DNA of 64,000 bases, taken from the NCBI RefSeq assembly GCF_026283925.1, contig NZ_JAPDPF010000005.1, positions 186,001-250,000 on the forward strand. Reading direction: 5' to 3'. Position 1 is the stretch's first letter. Each line of letters starts with the position of its first letter. Positions 47,673-61,298 of the stretch are shown here, in pieces. The notes under the pieces were generated by a model. The model made no database searches. It had not been told where the DNA came from and saw nothing but the letters and a program-made list of their open reading frames with translations. This stretch comes from Dyella halodurans. Lineage in GTDB: Bacteria > Pseudomonadota > Gammaproteobacteria > Xanthomonadales > Rhodanobacteraceae. Position numbers and translations under genes: made by a program.

Positions 47673-49712
47673 ATGCACCCAGCCGTAAGATCCGTGATCC
47701 TTGCCTTGAGCCTCGGTGCATTGGCAGGCGGCAGCGGTCGAGCATGCGCCGATGCGACGGCAGATTCGCATGACACGGATGCGCGCTACTTTGACTTGCT
47801 CGATCTGCATGGCACGCCAAGGACAGCCTCGGATCGAAGCTTCAATATCTTTTTCGATGCCGGCTCCTGGCACGGTTACAGCCTGCCTCCCGTCGATGAT
47901 CCGGCCACGGGCTTTACCGGACCGTTCGTGCACAGCTTGCGCGCCGGCCAGTGGGTCGGCCTGCGCATGGCCGAACTGCAACTGCAGGATGCGGCGACGC
48001 ATCGGGACATCGCGCTGGTGCCGCTGGAAAGTCATGCAGCGCCCGGCTATCTGGTGCGCAGCTTTCAAGCCCCGGCCTTGGCGGTGAAGCAGGCGCTCTT
48101 CTTCGCCGATTCCTGGCATGCGCTGGTGCGTATCGAACTCACCTCATCGACGGCGCAAGACGTCGACCTGGGTATCGCAGGGCAGGTGATGCCGTCGCTG
48201 GCAGCAGGTCTCGCCCAGGAAGGCGATAGCGTGGTGCAGACGTTTCCCCGCTCCCGCTCCAGGCTGACCACAAGACTCCATGTTGATGACGCAGCCGCCT
48301 ATCGCGTCACGCTTGCCGGCGCTAATTACCGCATCGACTCTACGCAGGCGATGCATCTGCAGCCGAACCAGACCGTCGTGGTGTTCGTCGATCAAACCTT
48401 GGTCTATGACGCGCAGGCGGAAACACCGCCGCCGGTCGATGACGCCAAGGCCTGGTTGCAGGATCGCGCACGCTGGGCGGATTACCTCAAGTCCATCGCA
48501 GCCAGCGAACGTCCCGACCTTGCCGATGACGTGACGCGGCGTGTCGCCGTCAAGGCGGCGATGACGCTGTTGGGCAACTGGCGAGCAGCGCGGGGCGATC
48601 TGCACCATGACGGGGTCATACCGTCCTATGCCAACCCCGACTTCAACGGGTTCTGGGCCTGGGACTCCTGGAAGCATGCCGCCGCGCTGGCGCAGTTCGC
48701 ACCCGAGCTCGCACGCAACCAGATGCGCGCCATGTTCGACTACCAGGCGACCGACGGCATGGTTCCCGACTGCGTCTTTCTCGACCAGGCCGGCAACAAC
48801 TGGCGCGATAGCAAGCCACCGCTGGCCGCGTGGGCAACGCTGGAAATCTTTCGCGCTACCGGCGACACGGCGTTTCTGGCCGAGATGTACGACAAGCTGG
48901 TGCGCTATCACCGCTGGTGGTTCCAGGCGCGCGACCATGATCACAATGGCCTGGCCGAATATGGATCGACCGACGGCACCCGCAAGGCGGCGGCCTGGGA
49001 AAGTGGCATGGACAATGCCGTGCGCTTTGATGGCATCCACATGCTGCAGAACGGCAGGAACGCCTGGTCGATCGACCAGGAGTCGGTCGATCTCAATGCT
49101 TATCTGTACGCGGAAAAGCGCGATCTCGCTCAGATCGCGGAGAAGCTCGGCCGTGGCCAGGAGCAAAAGCAATGGCTGGAGGAAGCCGCGGCCATGCGAC
49201 GCGCCATCCAGACGCGCATGTTTGACCCGGCGGACGGTTACTTCTTTGACGCCAAACTTGGGCGCGATGAACGCGTGCGTGTCTATGGTTCGGAAGGCTG
49301 GGCTCCGCTGTGGGCGGGCGTGGCCGATGCCGATCAGGCCGCGGCCGTGGTGCGGGTGATGCTCGACCCGGGCAAGTTCGCCACCTTCCTGCCGTTTCCT
49401 ACCCTGGCAAAGGACGATTCGAAATTCTCACCGATCAAGGGCTACTGGCGCGGGCCGGTATGGCTGGATCAGGCTTATTTCGGGGTCGAGGCGCTTCGGC
49501 GTTATGGCTATGAGCAGCAGGCGAACGAGATGACCCACCGGCTGGTGCTCCATGCGAGAGGCCTGACCGAACAGGCGCCGTTCTATGAAAACTACGATCC
49601 ACTGACCGGTCAGGGCTACCAGTCACGCCATTTCAGCTGGGCCGCCGCCAGCTATCTGTTGCTGTTGCGCCGGAGTGCGAGTGGCGAGCACGGCGATCGT
49701 CAAATCGAGTAA
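47673..49712 (+). CDS. Exported GH63 (YgjK-like) alpha-glucosidase
   Basis: 679 residues; GAGGAG lies 9 bases before the ATG. The N-terminus is a signal peptide (MHPAVRSVILALSLGALAGG, to ACA-DA). Residues ~40-250 form a beta-sandwich, and ~285-675 an (alpha/alpha)6 barrel. Barrel motifs of GH63: GFWAWDSWKHAAALA, acid Asp447 in AWESGMDNAVRFD, QESVDLNAYLYAEK, KGYWRGPVWLDQAYFG and base Glu639 in PFYENYDPLTGQ. E. coli YgjK hydrolyses alpha-1,3-glucosyl disaccharides; the true substrate here is open. It is not in an operon; the next gene converges on it. Confidence 0.88.
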   Translation: MHPAVRSVILALSLGALAGGSGRACADATADSHDTDARYFDLLDLHGTPRTASDRSFNIFFDAGSWHGYSLPPVDDPATGFTGPFVHSLRAGQWVGLRMAELQLQDAATHRDIALVPLESHAAPGYLVRSFQAPALAVKQALFFADSWHALVRIELTSSTAQDVDLGIAGQVMPSLAAGLAQEGDSVVQTFPRSRSRLTTRLHVDDAAAYRVTLAGANYRIDSTQAMHLQPNQTVVVFVDQTLVYDAQAETPPPVDDAKAWLQDRARWADYLKSIAASERPDLADDVTRRVAVKAAMTLLGNWRAARGDLHHDGVIPSYANPDFNGFWAWDSWKHAAALAQFAPELARNQMRAMFDYQATDGMVPDCVFLDQAGNNWRDSKPPLAAWATLEIFRATGDTAFLAEMYDKLVRYHRWWFQARDHDHNGLAEYGSTDGTRKAAAWESGMDNAVRFDGIHMLQNGRNAWSIDQESVDLNAYLYAEKRDLAQIAEKLGRGQEQKQWLEEAAAMRRAIQTRMFDPADGYFFDAKLGRDERVRVYGSEGWAPLWAGVADADQAAAVVRVMLDPGKFATFLPFPTLAKDDSKFSPIKGYWRGPVWLDQAYFGVEALRRYGYEQQANEMTHRLVLHARGLTEQAPFYENYDPLTGQGYQSRHFSWAAASYLLLLRRSASGEHGDRQIE

Positions 49713-49768: not shown

Positions 49769-50452
49769 TCAGCGTTTGGACGTCTTCTTCGGCGACGAGG
49801 CCAGGCGTTCGACCTGGCTTGCCATGCTCGCGGCGACCACTTGCATGACGGCCATCGGATCCAGCGTCGGATCGTCGAACAGCATTTCCAGGGCAGCATA
49901 GGCCATGCTGTCGGCCACCCGGCTGAACAGCTTCATCTGCTCCGGATCAGCGCCAGGAAACGCTTCGGCCAGTTGTGCAGTTACCTGTGCGACCACCTCC
50001 CGTGCCGAGGCAAGGCGCACTTCCTGCAACACGGGTATGGCGCGTAGCGCGCGCATGATCCAGATACCGCCCGTGGTCTCGCGCGTGACCTGGAAGGTTG
50101 CCAGCAGCAGCGTCGTCAGCGCCTCGTTCAGTTGCCCGGTGGTGCCGCGAAAGGCGTCGGGCGTCAGTGACTCTGCGATCAGCGCATTCTGCTGTTCCAT
50201 CAAGCGGCGACCCAGTTCGTGGAGCAGGGCGTACTTGTTCGGAAAGTAGCGATACAGCGCTGGCGGCGACAGCTTGGCGCGCTCGCACACCAGGTTGGTG
50301 GTGAGCTTCTCGAAGCCCACCTCCGCGAGGACCTGGGCCGCCACGTGCAGCAGGTGTTCGTAGGTTTCCGACGAACGCGCCTGCGCCGGCATCAGCTTCG
50401 GCGCTAGTTTGACCTTGGGGCGCTTGACGGCCCCGGAGCGGGACGAAGGCAC
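49769..50452 (-). CDS. TetR-family regulator of the adjacent operon
   Basis: 227 residues from a GTG at 50452; an ATG 20 codons in (50392) is also possible since the first residues are only basic (KRPKVKLAPKL). The helix-turn-helix is at ~28-75: EHLLHVAAQVLAEVGFEKLT, then NLVCERAKLSPPALYRYFPN. The C-terminal domain is all-helical and unlike any ligand class I know. It is divergent from the FGGY kinase gene, with two inverted repeats in the 87-base A/T-rich gap, the standard layout of a TetR repressor controlling a neighbouring operon. The C-terminus is Lys/Ser-rich. Confidence 0.88.
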   Translation of the reverse strand: MPSSRSGAVKRPKVKLAPKLMPAQARSSETYEHLLHVAAQVLAEVGFEKLTTNLVCERAKLSPPALYRYFPNKYALLHELGRRLMEQQNALIAESLTPDAFRGTTGQLNEALTTLLLATFQVTRETTGGIWIMRALRAIPVLQEVRLASAREVVAQVTAQLAEAFPGADPEQMKLFSRVADSMAYAALEMLFDDPTLDPMAVMQVVAASMASQVERLASSPKKTSKR

Positions 50453-50486: not shown

Positions 50487-50502
50487 TATAGCAAAAACTA
50501 TA
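50487..50502. promoter_or_regulatory. Candidate TetR operator 1
   Basis: TATAGCAAAAACTATA: perfect 5-base arms around a 6-base spacer, in the gap between the TetR gene and the kinase operon. Its A/T richness contrasts sharply with the genome, so the kinase promoter likely overlaps it. Confidence 0.65.
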
Positions 50503-50504
50503 TC

Positions 50505-50518
50505 GTAGCTAAAACTAC
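50505..50518. promoter_or_regulatory. Candidate TetR operator 2
   Basis: GTAGCTAAAACTAC: 4-base arms around a 6-base spacer. It shares TAGC-AAAACTA with site 1 and its centre is 17 bases away, so two dimers could bind on nearby faces of the helix. It ends 22 bases before the kinase ATG. Confidence 0.65.
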
Positions 50519-50539
50519 CATTTTGACTTCGGATCGATC

Positions 50540-52168
50540 ATGGCAAGCCGGCCGCCAGCAGAGGTGCCTTTGGAGAGCGAACGCCTCGTGCTGGCGGTCG
50601 ACCTGGGCACGTCCGGGTGCAAGTGCGCCCTGGTTGGGCTGAGTGGCCGCGTGCATGCCTGGGCGTTTCGGCCGGTGCCGCTTTACCTGGTCGGTGAATT
50701 TGGCGTGGAGCAGGACGCCGAGGACTGGTGGCGCGCGTTTCTTGGCGCTGCCCAGGAAGTGCTCGAGGGTGATGCGGAGCGTCGCCGGCGCGTCGTGGCG
50801 GTTTGTGTTTCCGCCTTCGGCGAATGCACGGTACCGGTGGATGAGGCCGGGCGCGCGCTGGCGCGCGCGATGCTGTGGCTGGACATGCGCGGAGCCGAGT
50901 CGATCCGTCGGCGCGCGCGCAGCGGCAAGCTCAACGTGCAGGGCTACGGACCGCTGAAGCTGGCGCGCTGGCTGCGGCTCACCGGTGGTGCGCCGTCGCT
51001 GTCGGGCAAGGACCCTGCCGGCCACATCGCCTGGCTGCATGATCATCACCAGCCGCTGGTCGAACGCACGCACAAGTTTCTCAACGCACTGGATTTCATG
51101 AACCTGCGCCTCACCGGGCGCTACTGCGCGACGCACGACTCGGCGCTGACCACCTGGGCCACCGACAACCGCGATCTCTCGCGCGTGCGCTATGACGACA
51201 AGCTGTTGCGCTTGCTGGAAATCGATCACGAGCGCCTGCCGGAGCTGGTGTCGTCGACCGAGGTCATCGGTCATCTGATGCCGGCGGTCGCCAGTGCACT
51301 CGGCCTGGCACCGACCACCAAGGTGGTGGCCGGCGCGGTGGACAATTCCGCGGCGGCGATCGGTGCGGGAACCGTGCGTGACGGCGATTTGCATCTTTAC
51401 CTTGGCACGTCGTCATGGCTTGGCGCGCACATACCCAGGAAGCGCACGCACCTGAGCGCGTTCATTGCGTCGGTGCCGTGCGCGCAGAAGGATCGCTACC
51501 TGGCCATGGCGATGCAGTCGGCGGCCTGCAGCAACCTGACCATGCTACGCGACCGCATCCTGTTCCATGCGGATGAGCTTTCCGGCAACCACGAGCGGCA
51601 GGATGACTATGCGCTACTCGATCGCATTGCCGAGCGTGTCCAGCCGGGCGCACGTGGACTGATCTATCTGCCCTGGCTGCAGGGCGAGCGCACGCCAGTG
51701 GATGATAGGCACCTGCGTGCCGGCTTGCTGAACCTCTCGCTGGAGCACACGCGGGAAGACATCATTCGCGCGTTCCTCGAAGGCGTGGCGTTGAATACAC
51801 GCTGGATGCTGGAGCCCATGCTGCGTTTCGTCGGCAGCGAGAAGGGCAGCGCCATGACCATCGTCGGCGGTGGCGCCCAGTCGCAGGTGTGGTGCCAGAT
51901 CATGGCCGACGTCACCGGCATGGTGATCCGGCAACCGCACATGCCGATCCAGGCCAATGCGATGGGTGCGGCCTTCATTGCCGGCGTCGGCCTGGGCGAA
52001 TTGTCGTTCTCCGACGTGCCGTCGCTGTGCGGCATCGCCCGTACGTTCGAACCGCGCGACACCGTACGCGGTCTTTACGATGATCGCTTCGGCACCTTCA
52101 AGGAGCTTCACCGAAGACTCGCGCCTGTCTATCGCAAAATCCGCCGACAACTGGAGGCGACCGCATGA
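50540..52168 (+). CDS. FGGY-family carbohydrate kinase, substrate unknown
   Basis: 542 residues. N-terminal ATPase motif LAVDLGTSGCKCALVGL (Asp21), AVCVSAFGECTVPVDEAG, catalytic-base region VAGAVDNSAAAIGAGTV, and C-terminal IVGGGAQSQVWCQIMADVTG with NAMGAAFIAG. It is longer than xylulokinase (about 500) and only distantly similar to XylB at 32106-33602. FGGY kinases phosphorylate polyols, ketoses or their relatives. It heads an operon with a class II aldolase (4-base ATGA overlap), so the product is presumably a phosphorylated ketose or acid that the aldolase splits. No substrate assignment is justified. Confidence 0.88.
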   Translation: MASRPPAEVPLESERLVLAVDLGTSGCKCALVGLSGRVHAWAFRPVPLYLVGEFGVEQDAEDWWRAFLGAAQEVLEGDAERRRRVVAVCVSAFGECTVPVDEAGRALARAMLWLDMRGAESIRRRARSGKLNVQGYGPLKLARWLRLTGGAPSLSGKDPAGHIAWLHDHHQPLVERTHKFLNALDFMNLRLTGRYCATHDSALTTWATDNRDLSRVRYDDKLLRLLEIDHERLPELVSSTEVIGHLMPAVASALGLAPTTKVVAGAVDNSAAAIGAGTVRDGDLHLYLGTSSWLGAHIPRKRTHLSAFIASVPCAQKDRYLAMAMQSAACSNLTMLRDRILFHADELSGNHERQDDYALLDRIAERVQPGARGLIYLPWLQGERTPVDDRHLRAGLLNLSLEHTREDIIRAFLEGVALNTRWMLEPMLRFVGSEKGSAMTIVGGGAQSQVWCQIMADVTGMVIRQPHMPIQANAMGAAFIAGVGLGELSFSDVPSLCGIARTFEPRDTVRGLYDDRFGTFKELHRRLAPVYRKIRRQLEATA

Positions 52169-52827
52169 AGTTTCCGGAGATCCGCGAACAGGTGGTCAGG
52201 ATGAGCGTGATGCTCGCCGACCACGGTTTCTTCGCCGCGACGGGCGGTAACCTCGCCCTGAAGGTCGACGCCGAGCATATCGCCGTCACGCCTTCGGCCG
52301 TGGACTATTACCAGATGGGTCCCGATGACGTGTGCATCCTGCGCTTGCGGGACCTGGCCAAGGTGGATGGTGAGCGCAAGCCGTCGGTGGAAACCGGCAT
52401 GCATGCCAAGGTCTTGCAGGCACGCCCGGACTGCGCCGCCAGCATCCACACGCATCAACCGATCGCAAGCGCCTGCACGCTGATTGGCAAGCCGCTGCGC
52501 GTGACGGGGGCCGGACCGCGGGAGCTGCTTGGCGACAACGTGCCGATCGTGGGATACGCGCCATCGGGCACGTCCTGGTTGTCGAAGAAGCTGGCCAAGG
52601 CACTGCGGCCGGATGCAAACGCCTACCTGCTGCGTACGCACGGCGCGATCTGTTGTGGCACCAGCGCCGAGCGCGCCTTGCAGGCGATCGTCGCGCTCGA
52701 GGCGCTGGCCCTGGACTACTTGCGTGGCCGCATTGCCGCGCGTGCCGCCCTGCTGCCGCAAGAGGCCGCCTTGCAGCGCCTGCTGACAACGCTCAACACC
52801 GAACTCGTCCGGGATATGGTCCTATGA
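52165..52827 (+). CDS. Class II (zinc) aldolase, fuculose-phosphate-aldolase family
   Basis: 220 residues. All class II aldolase/adducin residues are in place: phosphate loop TGGNL (27-30), catalytic Glu76 in SVETGMH, zinc His95 and His97 in SIHTHQP, and His159 in LLRTHGA. Such enzymes cleave phosphorylated ketoses to dihydroxyacetone phosphate plus an aldehyde, or epimerise ribulose-phosphate (AraD type), or decarboxylate acids. It overlaps the kinase gene by 4 bases and the aminotransferase gene by 4 bases. Confidence 0.88.
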   Translation: MKFPEIREQVVRMSVMLADHGFFAATGGNLALKVDAEHIAVTPSAVDYYQMGPDDVCILRLRDLAKVDGERKPSVETGMHAKVLQARPDCAASIHTHQPIASACTLIGKPLRVTGAGPRELLGDNVPIVGYAPSGTSWLSKKLAKALRPDANAYLLRTHGAICCGTSAERALQAIVALEALALDYLRGRIAARAALLPQEAALQRLLTTLNTELVRDMVL

Positions 52828-54296
52828 ATTTCCACGATACCTCCAGCGCGCCGGCCCAAAGCGGCATCTCCCAGTGGCCCGACACGGATGCGCTGTACCC
52901 GCGCTTTGAAGCCTTGGTGAAACAGCCGCTGCGGCCGATCCGGCGCGCCGCGATGACGGACGTGTTGAACTACTTCGAACAGCGCTGCCAAGGCTCCGCG
53001 CGCCTGGCGGAGCAGGCCAAGGCGGTGATTCCCGGCGGCGTGCAGCACAACCTCGCGTTCAATTATCCGTTCCCGCTGGCCATCAAGGAGGCGCGCGGGG
53101 CGCATATGACGGATGTGGACGGCAATCGCTACATCGACTTCCTGCAAGCCGGCGGGCCGACCTTGCTGGGATCCAATCATCCCGTGGTGCTCGAACGGGT
53201 CAAGGGCCTGCTCGACGAATGCGGCCCCACCACCGGCCTCTTGCACGAGTACGAAGTCAAGCTGGCCGAGCTGGTTTGCCAGGTCATGCCTGGCGTGGAC
53301 ATGCTGCGCATGATGGGCTCCGGCACCGAGGCGGTGATGGGCGCCATCCGCCTCGCGCGCGCCTACTCGGGCAAGAAGCGCGTGATCAAGATCGGCGGCG
53401 GCTATCACGGCTGGAGCGACCAGATGGTCTACGGCATGCGCTTGCCCAAGACCGGGCGCATGGAGGCGATTGGCATCCCGCGCGGCGCCACCGCGGCCAC
53501 GCAGGAGAGTCTGCCGAATGACCTGGAAGCGATCCGCCGCAAGCTGAAATGGAACCGCCTGCGCGGCGGTACCGCGGCGGTGATCGTCGAGCCGTTCGGG
53601 CCGGAAAGTGGCACGCGGCCGGTCACGCGGAACTTCAATGCAGCCTTGCGCAAGTTGTGCGACGAGTTCGACACCTTGCTCATCTTCGACGAAGTCGTCA
53701 CCGGATTTCGCGCGGGCATGGGCGGCGCGCAAGGGTACTTCGGCGTTACGCCGGACCTCACCGTGCTCGGCAAGTGCCTCACCGGCGGTTACCCGATGGC
53801 CGGCGCGATCGGCGGCCGACGCGACATCATGATGATGCTGGTGGGCGGTATCGGCACCACCACCAAGCGCGCGTTCGTCGGTGGCACGCTGACCGCGAAT
53901 CCGCTGTCGTGTGCGGCCGGCTATTTCGCCCTGCAGGAAATGCGGCGCACCGATGCGGCCTTCAAGGCCGGCCAGGCGGGCGATCGCATGCGCAACGGCC
54001 TCGAGCAAATCATCGAGCGCCTGGGCCTGCCCTATGTTGCCTACAACATGGGTTCCATCGTGCACCTGCAGACCTCGGGCGTCATGCTGCTCGACACCAG
54101 CAGCCTGCTGAAACTCGCGCGCGTGAAGAACGAGGCCAAGGAGCGCAAGCACATGATGGAGGAGATGGGCGCCGCCTACAGTGCGCATGGCGTGATCACC
54201 CTGGCCGGCAGCCGCATCTACACCAGCCTGGCTGACTCGGACGAGGTCATCGACGATGCGCTCAACCGCTTTGAAGACGTGTTGAAGCTGGTATGA
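52824..54296 (+). CDS. Class III PLP aminotransferase (glutamate-1-semialdehyde aminomutase-like)
   Basis: 490 residues from the ATG at 52824, which overlaps the aldolase stop. Fold type I PLP enzyme: GSGTEAVMGAIRLARA (cofactor phosphate), Asp289 in LIFDEVVTGFR and Schiff-base Lys317 in VLGKCLTGGYPMAGAIGG. The match is to the GSA-aminomutase subgroup, but the first ~60 residues are an extra helical extension and its company is not haem synthesis. Placed between two aldolase-fold genes, it probably moves an amino group to or from a sugar-derived aldehyde or ketone. A branch member of unknown substrate. Confidence 0.87.
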   Translation: MNFHDTSSAPAQSGISQWPDTDALYPRFEALVKQPLRPIRRAAMTDVLNYFEQRCQGSARLAEQAKAVIPGGVQHNLAFNYPFPLAIKEARGAHMTDVDGNRYIDFLQAGGPTLLGSNHPVVLERVKGLLDECGPTTGLLHEYEVKLAELVCQVMPGVDMLRMMGSGTEAVMGAIRLARAYSGKKRVIKIGGGYHGWSDQMVYGMRLPKTGRMEAIGIPRGATAATQESLPNDLEAIRRKLKWNRLRGGTAAVIVEPFGPESGTRPVTRNFNAALRKLCDEFDTLLIFDEVVTGFRAGMGGAQGYFGVTPDLTVLGKCLTGGYPMAGAIGGRRDIMMMLVGGIGTTTKRAFVGGTLTANPLSCAAGYFALQEMRRTDAAFKAGQAGDRMRNGLEQIIERLGLPYVAYNMGSIVHLQTSGVMLLDTSSLLKLARVKNEAKERKHMMEEMGAAYSAHGVITLAGSRIYTSLADSDEVIDDALNRFEDVLKLV

Positions 54297-54922
54297 CGAC
54301 CATGCCGATCGCCGCTGAGCTGCAGGACGCGATACGTCGATTGGACGGCAAGCATCTGCTTGGCGATGGCGCCAGCGTTTCCGTGCGCCTACCCGGCAGC
54401 GGGGCCATGCTGCTTGGGGTGCCAGACGGCGAGCCGCTACGCATCCTGCTCACCGACGATACGGATGCGGTGGCGCGACAGCACGCCGACGTCTATCGCG
54501 CGCGCCCCGATGTCGGGGCCATCGCGCTGGGCGCGGGCACCTATGGGCATCTGCTCCCCGACGTCGCCGGGGTCCTGCCGCAGGTGTTCGATGAACAGGC
54601 CAGGCATCTCGGGCGCACCGCACGCACGGCAAGCGGCCGGCCGGACGATATCAAGCGGAGCCTGGCCGACGGTGGCAACGCCTGGGTACATGGATCGAGC
54701 CTGCTGGTCTTTGGCACGACCCTGCATCGGCTGGTGTTGAATGCCGAACTGTTGGAGAAATGCGCGAAGGCCTATGTGCTGGCCGCCGGCACCGACGAGC
54801 CGTTGCACACCTTGCCCTGGTGGGTATGCCGCATTGCCAATGGGCGCTTGAAGAAGGACCAGAAGCGCGCGGCGGAACGGTTTGCACAAGGCTTGTTGCC
54901 GGAAGAAGTGAAGGGCTACTGA
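54293..54922 (+). CDS. Degenerate class II aldolase-fold protein
   Basis: 209 residues, start overlapping the aminotransferase stop (ATGA). The class II aldolase plan is recognisable: GDGASVSVRLPGSG for the phosphate loop, HADVYRARPDVGAIALGAG, and NAWVHGSSLLVFGTTLHRLV then LNAELLEKCAKAYVLAAG. Yet the residues needed for catalysis are gone: aligned on HxxVYRARPD, the Glu is Val60, and the two zinc His are Leu79 and Ala81; only His133 remains. Its C-terminus (WWVCRIANGRLKKDQKRAAE) is extended. It may be a regulatory or structural partner of the intact aldolase in the same operon, or a new activity on the old fold. Confidence 0.75.
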   Translation: MTTMPIAAELQDAIRRLDGKHLLGDGASVSVRLPGSGAMLLGVPDGEPLRILLTDDTDAVARQHADVYRARPDVGAIALGAGTYGHLLPDVAGVLPQVFDEQARHLGRTARTASGRPDDIKRSLADGGNAWVHGSSLLVFGTTLHRLVLNAELLEKCAKAYVLAAGTDEPLHTLPWWVCRIANGRLKKDQKRAAERFAQGLLPEEVKGY

Positions 54923-54989
54923 CGCTCTGCCGCAACTGGGTGCCGGCCTTCGCCGGCTCGACGATCAACAGCGCTGAACCGGAGTGCCC

Positions 54990-56180
54990 GTGACGACATC
55001 CGCTTCGATCGATTTTCGATTCTCGGAAATAACCTCCGCGCTGGTGGTGGGCTGCGTCGCGCTGATGGTGCTTGGACTGCAACCGGCGCTGCTGGGCGAC
55101 CTGATCGAGCAGCAGCGGATTTCCCTGGAGGGCGTGGGCCTGGTGGCGATGGGCGAAATCTTCGCCCTCGGCGTGGGCGTCGTGCTGGCCGAGAAGTGGC
55201 TGCCCCTGCACAGGATCCGCCTGGTAGCCGTGTTGAGCAGCCTTTACCTGGTGGCCGTCAACCTGCTGACCTTGCGCGTGCACGGGGATCTCGCGTGCAC
55301 GGCGATGCGCGTGGCCGCCGGGCTGGGCGAGGCCAGCCTGTTCTGGATCACCACCGTCGTACTCGTCCGTTCCCGCCAACCCGATCGTCTCTCCGGCATC
55401 TTCCTGACCATGCAGACGTTGGCGCAGGCGCTGGTCGCCCTGATGCTGGCGAGGCTGACGATGCCGTTCCTTGGTGGACAGAAGGGCTTTGTGGTGCTCG
55501 CCGTCATTTCGGCGCTGCCGCTGCTGCTGGCAGCGCGCCTGCCGGCCACGGTGCCGCCGCATGAGGAGGCAACCAAGCCAGCGGTCGCCACGCTTCGAGG
55601 CTTTTTCAGCCTGTTGGTACCCTTCGCGCATTTGTCGGCCGTGGGCACCATCTGGGCCTATTTCGAGCCGCTGGAAAAAGCGGCCGGCGTGGCCGCCAGC
55701 CAGGCGAACCTGCTGGTGGCGCTGGTGCTGGTGATGCAGATAGCCGGCGGCGGCATGGCGGCGGTGGCGGTGCGCCATTGGCGCGCGCCACGCGTGGTCG
55801 CGGCAAGCGCGGTCGCGTTTGCCGCAATTGGCGTGTTGATGCATCTGCTGGCCGGACACAGTGTGCTGGTCTTCACTGCCTTGTGCGTGGCGTTCGGCTT
55901 TCTGTGGCTGTTCCAGATGCCGTTCCACTACCGCCTGGCCTTCGATGTCGACCCCCAGGGGCGCATCGCGATGCTGGTGCCGGCGGCGCAGCTGCTCGGC
56001 TCGGGCTTCGGGCCGCTGGCTGCCTCGTTCTTCGTGCGTGGCGAAAACGTGCAAGGCATTCCGCTGATTGCATCCGGGTTTGCTTCCTGCGCGCTGCTTG
56101 CCGTGATCCTGGTGGCATCCCGCGTGTTTCAGGGAACCGGGCGGGGCAGGACTTCGCCTTGCGAAGAGAGCCCGCACTGA
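54990..56180 (+). CDS. MFS transporter of the kinase-aldolase operon
   Basis: 396 residues from a GTG at 54990, with GGAG 5 bases upstream; the GTG at 54984 is too close to it. Twelve hydrophobic helices, starting ITSALVVGCVALMVLGLQPA. It lacks the sharp sugar-porter motifs; the conserved loop (RSRQPDRLSGIFLTMQTLAQ) is only generic MFS. It lies 67 bases after the degenerate aldolase gene, same strand, so it is probably cotranscribed and carries the operon's substrate or product. Confidence 0.8.
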   Translation: MTTSASIDFRFSEITSALVVGCVALMVLGLQPALLGDLIEQQRISLEGVGLVAMGEIFALGVGVVLAEKWLPLHRIRLVAVLSSLYLVAVNLLTLRVHGDLACTAMRVAAGLGEASLFWITTVVLVRSRQPDRLSGIFLTMQTLAQALVALMLARLTMPFLGGQKGFVVLAVISALPLLLAARLPATVPPHEEATKPAVATLRGFFSLLVPFAHLSAVGTIWAYFEPLEKAAGVAASQANLLVALVLVMQIAGGGMAAVAVRHWRAPRVVAASAVAFAAIGVLMHLLAGHSVLVFTALCVAFGFLWLFQMPFHYRLAFDVDPQGRIAMLVPAAQLLGSGFGPLAASFFVRGENVQGIPLIASGFASCALLAVILVASRVFQGTGRGRTSPCEESPH

Positions 56181-56385: not shown

Positions 56386-57777
56386 TCAGCCGCCGATGTC
56401 GCGCAAGCGCTTGCCGTGCATCAGGTTGCGTTCGATTTGTTCCAGCGTCGCGCCCTTGGTTTCCGGCACCAGCCAGAACGTCACCACGATGAAGAGCAGG
56501 TTGAGCCCGGCGTAGATCAGGAAGGTGGACGAGTTGCCGATGCCGTTGAGCAGGCTGAGGAAGGTTGCGCCCACCACCATGTTGGCGATCCAGTTGGTGA
56601 AGGTGGAGCAGCCAATGCCGAAGTCGCGGCCCTTGAGCGGCTGGATCTCCGAGCACAGGGTCCACACCAGCGGTCCGGCGGACATGGCAAAGCCCACGAT
56701 GAACACCAGCAGCATGCTGACGGTGAAGATCTGCGCGGCATGGCCGGCGATGCCGCCGTGCATCATCACGCCGACGACGCCAAGTCCGGTGGCCATGACC
56801 GCGAAGCCGGTGTAGAGAATCGGCTTGCGGCCCCAGCGATCGATCAGCGCAATGGCGATGAAGGTGGCCAGCATGTTGGTGATGCCGACCAGGGCGGTGA
56901 ACCACATCTGCGCGCTGGTGTCGTAGCCCATCTCCTGGAAGATGCGTGGGGCGTAGTACATCACCACGTTCATGCCGGTGAACTGCTGCATCAGCTGCAG
57001 CAGCACGCCCAGGCCCACCGAGCGGCGAAAGTTCGCGTTCTCGAGAAACAGATGCCAGCCGCGCTGCGGCGTCTTGAGCTGCTCTTCGATATCGGCCGCT
57101 TCGCGCGCGACGACAGCGGCATCGTTGCGCAGGCGATGCAGGATGCGCATGGCCTCGTCGCGCCGGCCGCGCATGAACAGCCAGCGCGGGCTGTCCGGCA
57201 GCACCAGCACGCCCAGCAGGAACAGCACGCCGGGCACCGCAATGATGCCGAGCATCCAGCGCCATGCGCCGGAGTAGCTGAGCACGGTATCGGACAGAAA
57301 CGCCACCAGGATGCCGACGGTGATCATCAGCTGGTAGGTGGAGATCATTGCGCCGCGGATCCGCTCCGGCGCCACTTCCGCCAGATACAGCGGAGCGGCG
57401 AAGGTGGCCACGCCAATGGCCAGGCCGAGCACGACGCGCGCCGCGATCAGCGAGGCGGGCGACCAGGCATAGCCGGAGAGCAGCGAGCCGAGCACGAACA
57501 GCATGGCGCCCAGCACGAGCGAGCGCTTGCGCCCCAGGGCTGCCGACAGCCACCCCGCCGCGAGGGCGCCGACCGCGGCGCCGAGCATCATGGCGCTGAC
57601 GATCCATTCGACGATGTGATCGCTGACCTTGAATTCGGCCTGGATGAACTGGGTGGCCCCGGAGATGACGCCGATGTCCAGGCCGAACATCAGGCCTGCC
57701 AGGGCGGCCAGCAGGCAGGTGAAGACCACGGTGGCCCTGGATTGGAAAGTGGATGACGCGATGACTTCGGCGTTCAT
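56386..57777 (-). CDS. Sugar porter MFS transporter (galactose/arabinose:H+ type)
   Basis: 463 residues from the ATG at 57777 (GGGGGAG 8 bases upstream; a TTG two codons earlier is less likely). Sugar-porter motifs: GLMFGLDIGVISGATQFI, AALGRKRSLVLG, PDSPRWLFMRGRRDEA, DRWGRKPILYTG and VPETKGATLEQIERNLM, close to the GalP/AraE group. Imports a hexose or pentose with H+. It is the last gene of the oxidative galactose operon, 59 bases after the lactonase gene, so D-galactose is the likely cargo. Confidence 0.88.
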   Translation of the reverse strand: MNAEVIASSTFQSRATVVFTCLLAALAGLMFGLDIGVISGATQFIQAEFKVSDHIVEWIVSAMMLGAAVGALAAGWLSAALGRKRSLVLGAMLFVLGSLLSGYAWSPASLIAARVVLGLAIGVATFAAPLYLAEVAPERIRGAMISTYQLMITVGILVAFLSDTVLSYSGAWRWMLGIIAVPGVLFLLGVLVLPDSPRWLFMRGRRDEAMRILHRLRNDAAVVAREAADIEEQLKTPQRGWHLFLENANFRRSVGLGVLLQLMQQFTGMNVVMYYAPRIFQEMGYDTSAQMWFTALVGITNMLATFIAIALIDRWGRKPILYTGFAVMATGLGVVGVMMHGGIAGHAAQIFTVSMLLVFIVGFAMSAGPLVWTLCSEIQPLKGRDFGIGCSTFTNWIANMVVGATFLSLLNGIGNSSTFLIYAGLNLLFIVVTFWLVPETKGATLEQIERNLMHGKRLRDIGG

Positions 57778-57836
57778 GAACAATGCTCCCCCGCTTGCTA
57801 TGAAGAATGGTCTTTCGAGTGGTGCATCCGCGTCCG

Positions 57837-58751
57837 TCAGCTGGATGCGGTGGCGATGACGTGCTCCGGTGGTCCCGCAAAACGTGGCTCGGGCAGGCCG
57901 GCGACGTCGACCTGTGCCGCAAACAACGAGCCGGCCAGCGGCTGGGCCGCGAGCGACCTGGCGTCGAGGCCAAGGCGTGCACTGGTGATATAGAGCGTGG
58001 AGCGATCGGCGCCACCGAGGGCCATGCGCGTGGGTTGCGATGCCGGCACCTCGATGCAGCTATCGAGGCGGCCCTCCGGCGTGTAGCGAACGACACGTCC
58101 CAGCCCCCACTGGGCATTCCACAGTCCACCGGCGATGTCGACGATCGAGCCATCCGGTTCGCCATGCGCATCGTCGATCCGGGCAAACTCGCTGGTCGCG
58201 CCGCAGTCGTCGCCGTAGTCGCAGACCCGGATCACCGGCGTGGTGGAATCGCAGAAATACATGCGCTCGCCGCCGGGACTGAAGGCGATGCTGTTGCTGA
58301 TCGCCACGCCGGGCAGGGACAGGCGTTCGAGCGAGAGATTGCGGTTGAGGCGATAAAAGGACCCGACCGGCAGGCGGGCGCCACCATCGGCCGGCTCATG
58401 GAACGTGCCGAACACGAAGCGACCGCTGCGGTCGCAGGCACCGTCGTTGATGCGCGTGGGCTGTTGCGCCTCCACCTCGGTGATGGGCGTCAGGGTTTGG
58501 CTAGCCGGGTGGAAGAACGCCAGCCGGGACGCCAATCCCAGCAGCAGCCAGCCGTCCACCTCGCATAGCGCAAAGCAGCCCAGTCGTTCCGGCAGCAGCC
58601 AGTGGTCGAGCGCACCTTCATCGATGCGATAGCGCCACAGCGTCGACGCCTGGATGTCGGTCCAGTACAGCGCCTGCTCCCGCTCGCACCAGACGATGCC
58701 TTCGCCCAACTCGTTCTGCAGCAGGACAGCGACGCCAGCGACGTCGTTCAT
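57837..58751 (-). CDS. SMP-30/gluconolactonase-family sugar lactonase (galactonolactonase)
   Basis: 304 residues from the ATG at 58751, which overlaps the SDR stop by 4 bases. Six-bladed propeller with metal residues in ELGEGIVWCEREQALYWTDI, TRINDGACDRSGRFVFGT, AISNSIAFSPGG and GEPDGSIVDIAGGLWNAQWG. These enzymes hydrolyse sugar-1,4- or 1,5-lactones to aldonates. Placed directly after a dehydrogenase and beside DgoD, it should open D-galactonolactone; an L-arabinolactone role is a less likely alternative because the operon has DgoK and DgoA. Confidence 0.9.
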   Translation of the reverse strand: MNDVAGVAVLLQNELGEGIVWCEREQALYWTDIQASTLWRYRIDEGALDHWLLPERLGCFALCEVDGWLLLGLASRLAFFHPASQTLTPITEVEAQQPTRINDGACDRSGRFVFGTFHEPADGGARLPVGSFYRLNRNLSLERLSLPGVAISNSIAFSPGGERMYFCDSTTPVIRVCDYGDDCGATSEFARIDDAHGEPDGSIVDIAGGLWNAQWGLGRVVRYTPEGRLDSCIEVPASQPTRMALGGADRSTLYITSARLGLDARSLAAQPLAGSLFAAQVDVAGLPEPRFAGPPEHVIATASS

Positions 58752-59512
58752 GCCCAGCCGCCATCCACGATGAACTGTTGGCCGGTACACATGCGGCTGT
58801 CGTCGGCGGCCAGGAACAGCGCGGCGCGCGCGATGTCATCCGCCAGCAGGTAGCCCGGCAGGCATTGCAGCCGGGCGATGTCCGCCTCGCCGGCGGCATC
58901 GAGCCATAGTTCGCGCTGCTTCGGCGTGATCACCCAGCCGGGCACCAGGGCGTTGATGCGGATGCGCTCCTTGCCCAGCTCGCGCGCGAGCCCGTTGACG
59001 AGGCCGAGGATGGCGGCCTTGGCCGCGGCATACACCGGGTAGCCGGCGTTCTTCTTCATCCACCCGGTGGAGCCCAGGCAGATCACCGAGCCGGCGCCGA
59101 GTTCGCGCATGTCGTCGCGCACCGCCTGCGTGGCGAAGTAGTGGTGCCGCAGGTTGACGGCGATATTGCGATCGAAATCCTGTGGCGTGGTCGCGTCGAA
59201 CGCGTGGCGCACATCATTGGCGGCGTTGTTGATCAGCACGCCGATGGGGCCATGCGCGGCGCGGGCGGCGTCGATGGCCGCCTTGAGGGCGTCAAGATCG
59301 GTGACGTCGCAGCTGAGGAATCGTGGTCGATGGCGTGCATGGCCGAGCGCATCGACGAGTAGCTTGCCGTTGGCCTCGTCGATATCGACGAAGCTCACCC
59401 GGCTGCCCTGGTCGGCAAAATGTTCCACCAGGGCCGCGCCGATCCCGCTGGCGCCGCCCGAGATGAAGACGTGCCGATCGACGAGGCTGGGGTAGGTCGC
59501 AAAGGGGCTCAT
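58748..59512 (-). CDS. SDR-family sugar dehydrogenase (galactose dehydrogenase)
   Basis: 254 residues from the ATG at 59512 (GGAG 8 bases upstream). Classical short-chain dehydrogenase: SGGASGIG at 18-25, INNAAND, Ser148, and Tyr161/Lys165 in YPVYAAAKAAI; Asp43 in FVDIDE suggests NAD preference. It begins 2 bases after the dgoD stop. In the operon it supplies the first oxidation, D-galactose to D-galactonolactone. Several homologues act on L-fucose, L-arabinose or xylose, so substrate rests on context. Confidence 0.85.
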   Translation of the reverse strand: MSPFATYPSLVDRHVFISGGASGIGAALVEHFADQGSRVSFVDIDEANGKLLVDALGHARHRPRFLSCDVTDLDALKAAIDAARAAHGPIGVLINNAANDVRHAFDATTPQDFDRNIAVNLRHHYFATQAVRDDMRELGAGSVICLGSTGWMKKNAGYPVYAAAKAAILGLVNGLARELGKERIRINALVPGWVITPKQRELWLDAAGEADIARLQCLPGYLLADDIARAALFLAADDSRMCTGQQFIVDGGWA

Positions 59513-59514
59513 GC

Positions 59515-60663
59515 TCACCACTCCGCCACGCTGCCGTCGGCGTGACGCCAGACGGGGTTGCGCCAGCGATGCCCCACGGCGGCCCGCTCGGCGACGTAGG
59601 CCTCATTGACCGTGATGCCGAGGCCCGGGCCGCCCGGAATCGCCACGCAGCCGTCGTGGTAGGCGAATACGCTGCGGTCCTCGACGTAGTCCAGCAGGTC
59701 GTTCGTCGCGTTGTAATGGATGCCCAGGCTCTGCTCCTGGATGAAGGCGTTGTGGCACAAGGCATCGAGCTGCAGATTGGCCGCCAGCGCGATCGGGCCG
59801 AGCGGGCAGTGAAACGCGACGGCCACGTCATAGGCTTCGGCCATCGCGGCAATCTTGCGCGTTTCGGTGATGCCGCCGGCGTGTGACGGATCGGGCTGCA
59901 GGATGTCGACGCCGCCCATCGCCAGCACGCGCTTGAAGTCGGTGCGGTGGTACAGGCGCTCGCCCAGCGCGATCGGCGCCGGCGAGAGCGCGGCCAGTTC
60001 GGGCAACGCCTCCAGGTGTTCGGACAGCACTGGCTCTTCGATGAACATCAGCTTGAACGGCGCCAGTTCGCGCATCAGCACCTTGGCCATCGGCTTGTGC
60101 ACGCGACCATGGAAGTCCAGCCCGATGCCTATCTGCGGTCCTACCGCATCGCGAACCGCCTGCACGTTGGCCAGCACCTGCTCGACCTTGGCGAAAGTGT
60201 CGACATACTGCAGTTCTTCCGTGGCATTCATCTTCACCGCGGTGAAACCAGCGGCGACGGCCTGCTGCGCGGCGCGCGCCGTGTCGGCCGGCCGGTCGCC
60301 GCCTATCCAGCTATACACGCGTATGCGTTCGCGCACCGGGCCGCCCAGCAAGGCATGCACGGGCTGGCCCAGGTCCTTGCCCTTGATGTCCCACAAAGCC
60401 TGGTCGATGCCGGCGATGGCGCTCATCAGCACGGGGCCACCGCGGTAGAAACCGGAGCGATACATCACGCTCCACAGGTCCTCGATATGACGGGGATCCT
60501 TGCCGATCAGGTAATCCGACAATTCGTCCACCGCCGCTGCCACGGTGTGGGCGCGCCCTTCGACGATGGGTTCGCCCCATCCGCATAGGCCTTCGTCGGT
60601 GTCGATGCGCAGGAACAGCCAGCGCGGCGGGACGATGAAGGTGGTGAGGCCTGTGATCTTCAT
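59515..60663 (-). CDS. dgoD: D-galactonate dehydratase
   Basis: 382 residues from the ATG at 60663, the same length as E. coli DgoD. Residue positions also fit exactly: Asp183 and His185 (GLDFHGRVH), Glu209 (MFIEEPVL), Glu235 (ALGERLYHR) and His285 (VAFHCPLGP). It dehydrates D-galactonate to 2-keto-3-deoxygalactonate. Overlaps dgoA by 4 bases (ATGA). The longer open frame upstream lies in the aldolase gene and is not used. Confidence 0.95.
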   Translation of the reverse strand: MKITGLTTFIVPPRWLFLRIDTDEGLCGWGEPIVEGRAHTVAAAVDELSDYLIGKDPRHIEDLWSVMYRSGFYRGGPVLMSAIAGIDQALWDIKGKDLGQPVHALLGGPVRERIRVYSWIGGDRPADTARAAQQAVAAGFTAVKMNATEELQYVDTFAKVEQVLANVQAVRDAVGPQIGIGLDFHGRVHKPMAKVLMRELAPFKLMFIEEPVLSEHLEALPELAALSPAPIALGERLYHRTDFKRVLAMGGVDILQPDPSHAGGITETRKIAAMAEAYDVAVAFHCPLGPIALAANLQLDALCHNAFIQEQSLGIHYNATNDLLDYVEDRSVFAYHDGCVAIPGGPGLGITVNEAYVAERAAVGHRWRNPVWRHADGSVAEW

Positions 60664-61298
60664 GCGGCATCGCCCTTGGCAGCGAGGTCGGACTGCCAGG
60701 CATCGGCGAAGGCGCGCGCGCGCAAGGCGACGTCGCTGGCTTGGCGGCCTGGTGCGTAGAGGGATGACCCGATGCCGAAACCAGCGGCACCCGCAGCCAG
60801 CCATGGCGCCATCGCGTCGGGCGTCACGCCTCCCACTGGCAACACGGCTGTTCCAGGTGGCAGCACGGCAAGCCATGCCTTGAGTGCGGCGGGGCCGATC
60901 TGTTCGGCGGGAAACAATTTGAGTGCGTCGGCACCCGCGGCCAGTGCGGCGAACGCTTCGGTAGGTGTCGCCACGCCGGGCACGCAGTACAGGCCGGCCC
61001 GCTTGCTTGCGCGGATCACCTCGCCATCGCCGTGCGGCATGACGATCAACCGTCCACCCACGGCGGCGACGTCATGCACCCGGGCGGGATCGATCACGGT
61101 GCCCGCGCCGACCAGCGCGCGCTCACCGAAGGCCTCGACCAGGCGGCGAATGCTTTCCACGGGCTCGGGCGAGTTGAGCGGCACTTCGAGCACGCGAAAG
61201 CCGGCCTCGATCAGCACGGCGCCGATGTCCACGGCCTCCTCGGGACGGAGTCCGCGTAGGATGGCGACCAGGGGAAAGGATGTCAGCCAGTCGTTCAT
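60660..61298 (-). CDS. dgoA: 2-dehydro-3-deoxy-6-phosphogalactonate aldolase
   Basis: 212 residues from the ATG at 61298, which overlaps the dgoK stop as TGATG. KDPG/KDPGal aldolase family, class I: VAILRGLRPEEA with the carboxylate Arg, VLEVPLNSPEP (Glu), VGAGTVIDP and Schiff-base Lys127 in DALKLFPAEQIG. The ending VPVGGVTPD-like phosphate site is GGVTPDAMAPWLAAGAAGFG. It splits KDPGal to pyruvate and glyceraldehyde-3-phosphate. Confidence 0.94.
   Translation of the reverse strand: MNDWLTSFPLVAILRGLRPEEAVDIGAVLIEAGFRVLEVPLNSPEPVESIRRLVEAFGERALVGAGTVIDPARVHDVAAVGGRLIVMPHGDGEVIRASKRAGLYCVPGVATPTEAFAALAAGADALKLFPAEQIGPAALKAWLAVLPPGTAVLPVGGVTPDAMAPWLAAGAAGFGIGSSLYAPGRQASDVALRARAFADAWQSDLAAKGDAA

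Follow-up and report, generated by a model that had tools for sequence, protein, structure and literature searches.

In a 64,000-nucleotide stretch of the Dyella halodurans genome (hereafter the window, on contig 21 of the 4.69-Mb source genome, G000), four enzyme genes form a compact cassette encoding an FGGY-family kinase, a class II aldolase (AldA), a class III aminotransferase (AT3) resembling glutamate-1-semialdehyde aminomutase (GSAM) and a degenerate aldolase (AldB), followed by a transporter gene of the major facilitator superfamily (MFS) and preceded by a divergent TetR-type regulator gene. We favor, with somewhat better than even confidence, the reading that this operon serves to break down sphingoid bases, the 4-hydroxylated kind (phytosphingosine) being the likeliest. 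Taken separately, a role in sphingoid-base metabolism of some kind is quite likely, and a route from phytosphingosine to dihydroxyacetone phosphate (DHAP) has about an even chance. What is shown is which genes make up the set, how well they are conserved, which catalytic residues they retain and, for part of the relatives, that sphingosine genes are linked to them; the substrate, each reaction and the role and ligand of the TetR protein are inferred. The features of the locus are listed below, with Pfam domains and E-values in parentheses.

49769-50452, minus strand: TetR-family regulator, divergent from the operon (TetR_N, 1.9e-14)
50487-50518, no strand: putative TetR operator of two tandem near-palindromes, TATAGCAAAAACTATA (50487-50502) and GTAGCTAAAACTAC (50505-50518)
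50540-52168, plus strand: FGGY-family kinase (FGGY_N, 4.5e-36; FGGY_C, 1.5e-27)
52165-52827, plus strand: class II aldolase AldA (Aldolase_II, 1.8e-39)
52824-54296, plus strand: GSAM-like class III aminotransferase AT3 (Aminotran_3, 7.8e-56)
54293-54922, plus strand: degenerate aldolase AldB (Aldolase_II, 4.9e-5; 23.7 bits against a cut-off of 22.2)
54984-56180, plus strand: MFS transporter (MFS_1, 2.1e-7; 30.6 bits, below the cut-off of 33.4)

An earlier sequence-only reading of this DNA had described these gene families, stop-to-start overlaps of 4 bases, a following transporter and the divergent regulator, all of which are borne out by the open reading frame (ORF) coordinates and Pfam. The three overlaps that link the four enzyme genes lie at 52165-52168, 52824-52827 and 54293-54296, and 61 bases separate AldB from the MFS gene. 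The same reading had regarded the set as a candidate for an undescribed system; among the papers that our literature searches listed, going by title and opening of the abstract, there is no account of this gene set or of a bacterial phytosphingosine route, and the cassette is apparently an undescribed catabolic unit.

Conservation and distribution of the cassette

Scanning the contigs of named genomes for AT3 gave at least 558 stretches with a relative, and the best 80 of these (at least 558) were kept for comparison. Because ORF-based gene calls miss many genes in GC-rich loci, genes were counted by tblastn (at least half of the query, at least 30% identity), with some loci cut by contig ends. 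All four enzyme genes were present in 80 of 80 relatives, at identities of 57-77% for the kinase, 47-77% for AldA, 70-90% for AT3 and 34-68% for AldB, so that their co-occurrence is not due to chance, and the genes that the sequence-only reading took for a unit were found together rather than scattered. Genes of other families accompany them less regularly: the TetR gene of the window's cluster occurs in 64 of the 80 loci and a second TetR cluster, named by sequence similarity and by eye, in 10 others, while an MFS relative was found in 68, a DUF2147 protein in 50, a TorF-family porin in 48 and an aldehyde dehydrogenase of one cluster in 43.

The hosts comprise Dyella, Xanthomonas, Pseudomonas, Marinobacterium, many Burkholderiales, two alphaproteobacterial bins and three acidobacterial records, the AT3 rows closest to that of the window on the tree being from Dyella. 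Within groups the cassette occurs patchily: of 147 genomes in the family to which the window belongs, 10 gave an AldB match (a marginal one, E 7e-4, included), and of 199 genomes from the genus of one Pseudomonas locus, 13 have AT3 at E 1e-150. One copy (L099) lies on a Burkholderia ambifaria plasmid (NZ_CP152372.1) that is typed as conjugative, near IS5 and Tn3-family transposase genes, and Butyrivibrio fibrisolvens plasmid pNP243 (L100) carries a three-gene version made up of an FGGY kinase, a longer class II aldolase and AT3 (54% identity), with no AldB match in this plasmid version. In both plasmid records AT3 is named ‘aminotransferase class III-fold pyridoxal phosphate-dependent enzyme’. 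A GtrA-family gene lies inside the L100 version. In L099, an 83-residue Mpo1-like gene (2-hydroxy-palmitic acid dioxygenase family) adjoins an IS5 transposase gene; as a weak fragment in one locus bordered by an insertion sequence, it was given no weight.

Linkage to known sphingosine genes

Several of the genes that recur beside the cassette in part of the loci belong to the families of the Pseudomonas aeruginosa SphR regulon and its regulator. This regulon is reported to consist of sphA, sphBCD and cerN, argB responding in the reverse direction (PMC3900636). Among the neighbor clusters are a flavin (FAD) enzyme of the D-arabinono-1,4-lactone oxidase type, a small cytochrome c, an Ala_racemase_N enzyme dependent on pyridoxal phosphate (PLP) and an AraC regulator, and the annotated P. 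aeruginosa record, from which we translated the Sph queries, has the order cytochrome c, D-arabinono-1,4-lactone oxidase, DSD1-type PLP enzyme, transporter, sphR, argB. P. aeruginosa SphC matches 17 of the 80 loci (38-77% identity), SphB 15 (33-74%) and SphD 16 (42-78%) with three more at 24%; most of the SphC relatives are accompanied by SphB and SphD. SphR matches 18 loci at 27-39% identity, which says little on its own given the size of the AraC regulator family. Four loci, all from Pseudomonas, contain a neutral ceramidase gene (Ceramidase_alk, 2.1e-181). By a strict count, SphC or ceramidase occurs in 18 of 80 loci; any SphB-, SphC- or SphD-like gene or ceramidase occurs in 24, seven of which lack SphC (six counted only through cluster 20, described next, and L096 through its ceramidase). 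Cluster 20 is a second Ala_racemase_N-type gene found in L032, L034, L038, L042, L043, L046 and L047, and was rejected as SphD in some Pseudomonas loci given 24% identity in three of them.

To place these matches in their genomes we hand-picked 50 of the 80 loci across genera, in 49 genomes, leaving out some metagenome bins and near relatives. The SphC family (TIGR01679) scores above its cut-off in 16 of the 49, with one such hit apiece, and weak matches to the wider FAD family occur in nearly all of them. Fifteen of the 16 above-cut-off relatives fall within the cassette locus (~10 kb of AT3), against an expectation of ~0.07; in the remaining genome, the alphaproteobacterial bin of L060, SphC lies outside the locus. 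The linked loci come from Pseudomonas, Marinobacterium and several Burkholderiales and differ in gene order and orientation, and on a quickly built AT3 tree (83 rows, 17 labelled linked), many branches of which are weak, 10 changes of state are required to account for the linkage. In Marinobacterium L040 the genes follow one another on one strand in the order FGGY kinase, AldA, AT3, AldB, MFS, aldehyde dehydrogenase, SphB, SphC, SphD. Genes of the SCP2 (sterol transfer) family lie upstream of this cassette (854-1168 and 3635-3949 of L040), one identified by profile scan and the other a near copy beside it; this weak association was given no weight.

Ceramidase genes occur in five of the 49 cassette genomes, in four of which the gene lies in the cassette locus. 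Across 199 Pseudomonas-group genomes, ceramidase was found in five (four of them strong hits), three of which carry the cassette (p 0.00085, or 0.0020 counting the weak fifth hit, an association that comes from one clade). Two genomes differ in the presence of the cassette. In G248 (L162), genes for SphBCD, an AraC protein, DUF1302, DUF1329 and ceramidase lie together with no AT3 match, and in G385 (L164) the cassette sits between the DUF1302/TetR and AraC/SphDCB genes of the same island type. Apart from the ceramidase, for which no match was found in the G385 genome, the two loci are a natural absence/presence pair, the cassette forming one module of the sphingolipid island that contains it, with gain and loss indistinguishable. 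Overall, the cassette is linked to known sphingosine genes beyond chance, if not uniformly (p 0.078 for SphC in the Pseudomonas group, see below), and this linkage supports a class of substrate rather than a reaction. A short-chain dehydrogenase/reductase (SDR) that scores as 3-ketodihydrosphingosine reductase-like was given no weight, being far under the cut-off of a model that is not its best.

Family assignment and catalytic residues

Both FGGY domains of the kinase score above their Pfam cut-offs, and its D268 and E95 are invariant in 45 of 45 aligned rows. D268 aligns with the Asp of the xylulokinase motif GGDN, which we take to be the catalytic Asp, and at the position of xylulokinase QMHG the cassette family has the consensus QxEG, with the invariant E95 (FGEC in the window). 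The top NCBIfam model, XylB (TIGR01312), gives 255.1 bits, short of the 380.25 that define the xylulokinase equivalog, and the kinase is under the cut-off of each of the 12 NCBIfam models listed for it, on which ground we rejected xylulose or gluconate catabolism. Structures similar to its AlphaFold model (mean pLDDT 87.4) include those of gluconate/xylulose kinases and of glycerol kinases. We propose that it acts as a sphingoid-base (or keto-sphingoid) 1-kinase.

AldA retains E76, H95, H97 and H159 in at least 97% of 83 rows. By homology these are the likely catalytic Glu and three metal-binding His, the residue set of a FucA/DrdA-like class II aldolase, and DrdA itself is reported to use Glu76 (PMC6079011). 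DrdA is also its closest solved structure (6btd/6btg, E 6.2e-21), with fuculose-phosphate aldolases nearby, although AldA scores with dehydratase and decarboxylase models of NCBIfam as well. The closest curated models for AT3 are those of GSAM, all under cut-off; at 285.7 bits against 527.3 for the HemL model (TIGR00713), plain heme biosynthesis was rejected as its role, and another class III gene of G000, 37% identical to AT3, may be HemL instead. The motif PGGVQHNLAFN is retained across the AT3 family, and K317 is the putative PLP lysine.

The AldB model (mean pLDDT 93.8) matches L-ribulose-5-phosphate 4-epimerase (Foldseek E 6.9e-10) and fuculose-1-phosphate aldolase (2.2e-9), but the metal-binding HxH of an active class II aldolase is not among the conserved columns of AldB, which has invariant positions of its own (49 rows), among them F99, D100, E101, Q102 and R104. 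With an aldolase fold, no conserved HxH and its own invariant positions, AldB appears to be conserved as a non-catalytic relative and not to be a gene in decay, and we propose that it is a partner subunit of AldA.

Proposed route and comparison with known systems

Phytosphingosine (2-amino-1,3,4-octadecanetriol) is typical of plants and fungi. In the proposed route, the FGGY kinase would phosphorylate the C1 hydroxyl of the sphingoid base, and AT3 would turn the C2 amine into a ketone before or after this step. The product, 1-phospho-2-keto-3,4-dihydroxy-octadecane, would be a ketose-1-phosphate with an alkyl tail, the type of substrate on which class II aldolases act, and AldA, perhaps with AldB as non-catalytic partner, would cut the C3-C4 bond to give DHAP and pentadecanal. 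An aldehyde dehydrogenase encoded elsewhere in G000 could then oxidize pentadecanal for beta-oxidation, with the MFS protein moving the substrate or product. We prefer phytosphingosine because sphinganine and sphingosine have no 4-hydroxyl and could not be cleaved in this way. We give slightly less than an even chance to the proposal in full, a lipid-degrading pathway made of sugar enzymes, in which the FGGY kinase, the GSAM-type aminotransferase and AldA, with AldB as its pseudoenzyme partner, convert phytosphingosine to DHAP, an intermediate of glycolysis, and an odd-chain C15 aldehyde, free of sphingosine-1-phosphate (S1P) lyase and SphBC. Uptake, phosphorylation, amino transfer and aldol cleavage, the kinds of step suggested in the sequence-only reading, stay the likely ones.

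By textbook stereochemistry, the keto form of phytosphingosine would share its 3S,4R configuration with D-xylulose; this would fit a kinase of the XylB type, without amounting to proof since XylB acts on C5. AT3 has a distant match in the PDB to an ‘aminopentol aminotransferase’ (6hbs, E 6e-27), and we take this protein (6hbs/6hbv) to be FumI. In the S1P lyase route, a sphingoid base is phosphorylated and cut between C2 and C3 into ethanolamine phosphate and a long-chain aldehyde; phosphorylation and C-C cleavage are common to both, whereas the cassette would add a transamination and cut at C3-C4, releasing DHAP.

For the individual steps there are precedents. FumI is reported to remove the C2 amine of hydrolysed fumonisin B1, which makes it a class III aminotransferase acting on a sphingoid-like molecule, although its sequence is distant from AT3 and no FGGY kinase or class II aldolase is named for fumonisin catabolism in the part of the source available to us (PMC2933618). 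DrdA converts 5-deoxyribulose-1-phosphate to DHAP and acetaldehyde (PMC6079011), and supports the proposed cleavage because its substrate has the same head with a methyl tail. The DrdK/DrdI/DrdA disposal of 5-deoxyribose, like the fucose and rhamnose pathways, thus joins a kinase and a class II aldolase to yield DHAP and an aldehyde, as proposed here (PMC6079011); the cassette differs in having an aminotransferase in place of the isomerase, a kinase of the FGGY type rather than one resembling 5-methylthioribose kinase, and a proposed substrate that bears a long alkyl tail. With the P. aeruginosa SphR regulon, in turn, the cassette would share the processing of sphingoid bases, and relatives of SphB, SphC, SphD and SphR and a ceramidase stand beside some cassettes (PMC3900636, PMC11893366). 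SphB and SphC are described as a periplasmic cytochrome and oxidase and SphD as a PLP aldolase-like enzyme (PMC3900636, PMC11893366), and SphR is reported to bind phytosphingosine also (PMC5150637). The cassette is unlike this regulon in combining a kinase, an aminotransferase and a class II aldolase under its own TetR gene, and in the lack of an SphC match in G000.

What would be new is that catabolism of the kinase-aldolase type acts on a lipid. The ways in which bacteria of soil and plants consume or detoxify sphingoid bases have yet to be settled: a 2025 report gives the direct product of SphBC as not identified, and its authors conclude that P. fluorescens WCS365 must use some other mechanism (PMC11893366). 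For an sphBC-independent mechanism of this sort the cassette offers a concrete candidate. If the proposal is true, it would provide the first FGGY kinase with a long-chain lipid substrate to our knowledge, a bacterial sphingoid-base route with neither S1P lyase nor SphBC that is spread patchily over Pseudomonadota and Acidobacteriota, and a function for a widespread aminotransferase family, and lipids would join the substrates of FGGY kinases and class II aldolases.

Evidence against a sphingoid-base role and alternative substrates

A number of observations weigh against the sphingoid-base proposal. Linkage is absent from most loci, with neither SphC nor ceramidase within the locus stretch compared in 62 of 80, and 44 of the 49 cassette genomes are without ceramidase. 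SphA is matched in none of the 80 loci at E 1e-5 with half of its length covered, for which reason the TorF porin found near 48 cassettes was rejected as SphA. The locus ceramidase scores 517 bits against the cut-off of 1200 for the NCBIfam neutral ceramidase equivalog, and the four ceramidase-linked loci are close relatives that probably represent one event. Among the 199 Pseudomonas-group genomes, SphC is present in 6 of 13 with the cassette and 39 of 186 without it, which is not significant (p 0.078); two of the six with both have SphC at a large distance from the cassette. Neither marker of the SphR regulon was found in G000 itself: no SphC match was found in it (in a search without a positive control of its own), and no ceramidase was found in 147 genomes of its family, G000 included, with a profile that did match elsewhere. 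The cassette of G000 would therefore need free sphingoid bases. On the enzyme side, the substrates of functionally known FGGY kinases are polar sugars and polyols, a C14 tail must fit here, and we know of none that acts on a lipid; AldA has S74-V75 at what we take to be the phosphate-site serine pair of FucA, one serine being replaced by valine. Finally, the acidobacterial cassettes L073, L075 and L079 adjoin GH35/DUF5597, GH92 or GH31 glycosidase genes. A large outer-membrane barrel gene also adjoins the L073 cassette.

The glycosidase neighbors of the acidobacterial cassettes also favor the chief alternative, an unlikely one in our estimate, in which a water-soluble amino-sugar or aminopolyol is taken up, phosphorylated, transaminated and split into DHAP and a small aldehyde. 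All four enzyme families are known chiefly for acting on small polar molecules, the kinase is closest to xylulokinase, and the window copy sits between a YgjK-like glycosidase gene and a sugar-porter gene. These sugar-gene flanks, however, are common to only one of six family relatives examined, the one with a near-identical cassette. Neither a sugar isomerase nor a sugar-specific transporter was identified among the neighbor clusters present in at least seven loci (assigned by Pfam or by eye, the smaller clusters being scanned in part and the MFS specificity left unassigned). The substrate class that the sequence-only reading had suggested, an amino-sugar or aminopolyol, is less likely than a sphingoid base because SphB, SphC and SphD relatives, an SphR-like regulator and neutral ceramidase recur in part of the loci; since phytosphingosine itself is chemically an aminopolyol that bears a long alkyl tail, the suggestion came near the mark for the head group.

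A sphingoid substrate need not carry the 4-hydroxyl, and the linkage evidence does not separate the sphingoid bases: sphBC are reported to matter for all three common ones, and SphR is reported to bind all three (PMC5150637). The cassette might act on sphingosine, sphinganine or sphingoid-like fungal toxins, with AldA catalyzing, for example, a dehydration or decarboxylation, reactions known from other members of its family, in place of the C3-C4 retro-aldol reaction, as its scores with models of both kinds and the FumI precedent on a fungal sphingoid analog would allow (PMC2933618). We rate this as improbable, somewhat more so than a polar substrate: on chemical grounds only a 4-hydroxyl yields a cleavable ketose-1-phosphate, and the best solved relatives of AldA are ketose-1-phosphate aldolases. 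That the cassette handles a small fragment of the sphingoid head made by SphC and SphD, rather than the long-chain base, would also fit the gene linkage with SphBCD but is very improbable, as 63 of 80 loci are without SphC in the locus stretch compared, G000 has no SphC match and the predicted C2 fragment offers a class II aldolase no bond to cut.

Regulator and genomic surroundings

The near-palindromes at 50487-50518 are the candidate operator through which the TetR protein would repress the operon. Resembling near-palindromes were seen by eye in the corresponding region of many, though not all, of 16 relatives. Allowing up to one mismatch, the operator pattern matches once in the whole of G000 and a reversed control pattern six times; a wider TetR regulon was therefore rejected, and the TetR protein looks like a local regulator.

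Upstream of the window cassette, the YgjK-like glycosidase gene (47673-49712) was identified by profile search, as was the sugar porter downstream, in the region 56386-60700, where SMP-30-like, SDR and enolase-superfamily-like genes were named by eye; these flanking genes apparently make up a sugar cluster of their own. In other Dyella (L020-L023) an aldehyde dehydrogenase gene comes after the cassette, and its 68% relative in G000, on contig 24, adjoins a FadL-family gene, a position that we count in favor of the sphingoid-base reading. A beta-helix gene and a TonB-receptor-like gene (the latter by eye) also adjoin it, and genes of the same FadL, beta-helix and TonB-receptor-like kinds flank the cassette in L020-L023. 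On contig 24 (L180:7664-15711) the FadL-family, aldehyde dehydrogenase and TonB-receptor-like genes, a 453-residue ORF and the beta-helix gene lie together. Elsewhere in G000, an aminotransferase domain (contig 18:20527-21420, L003) belongs to an open frame of 2436 residues, possibly an enzyme of the polyketide synthase/nonribosomal peptide synthetase type.

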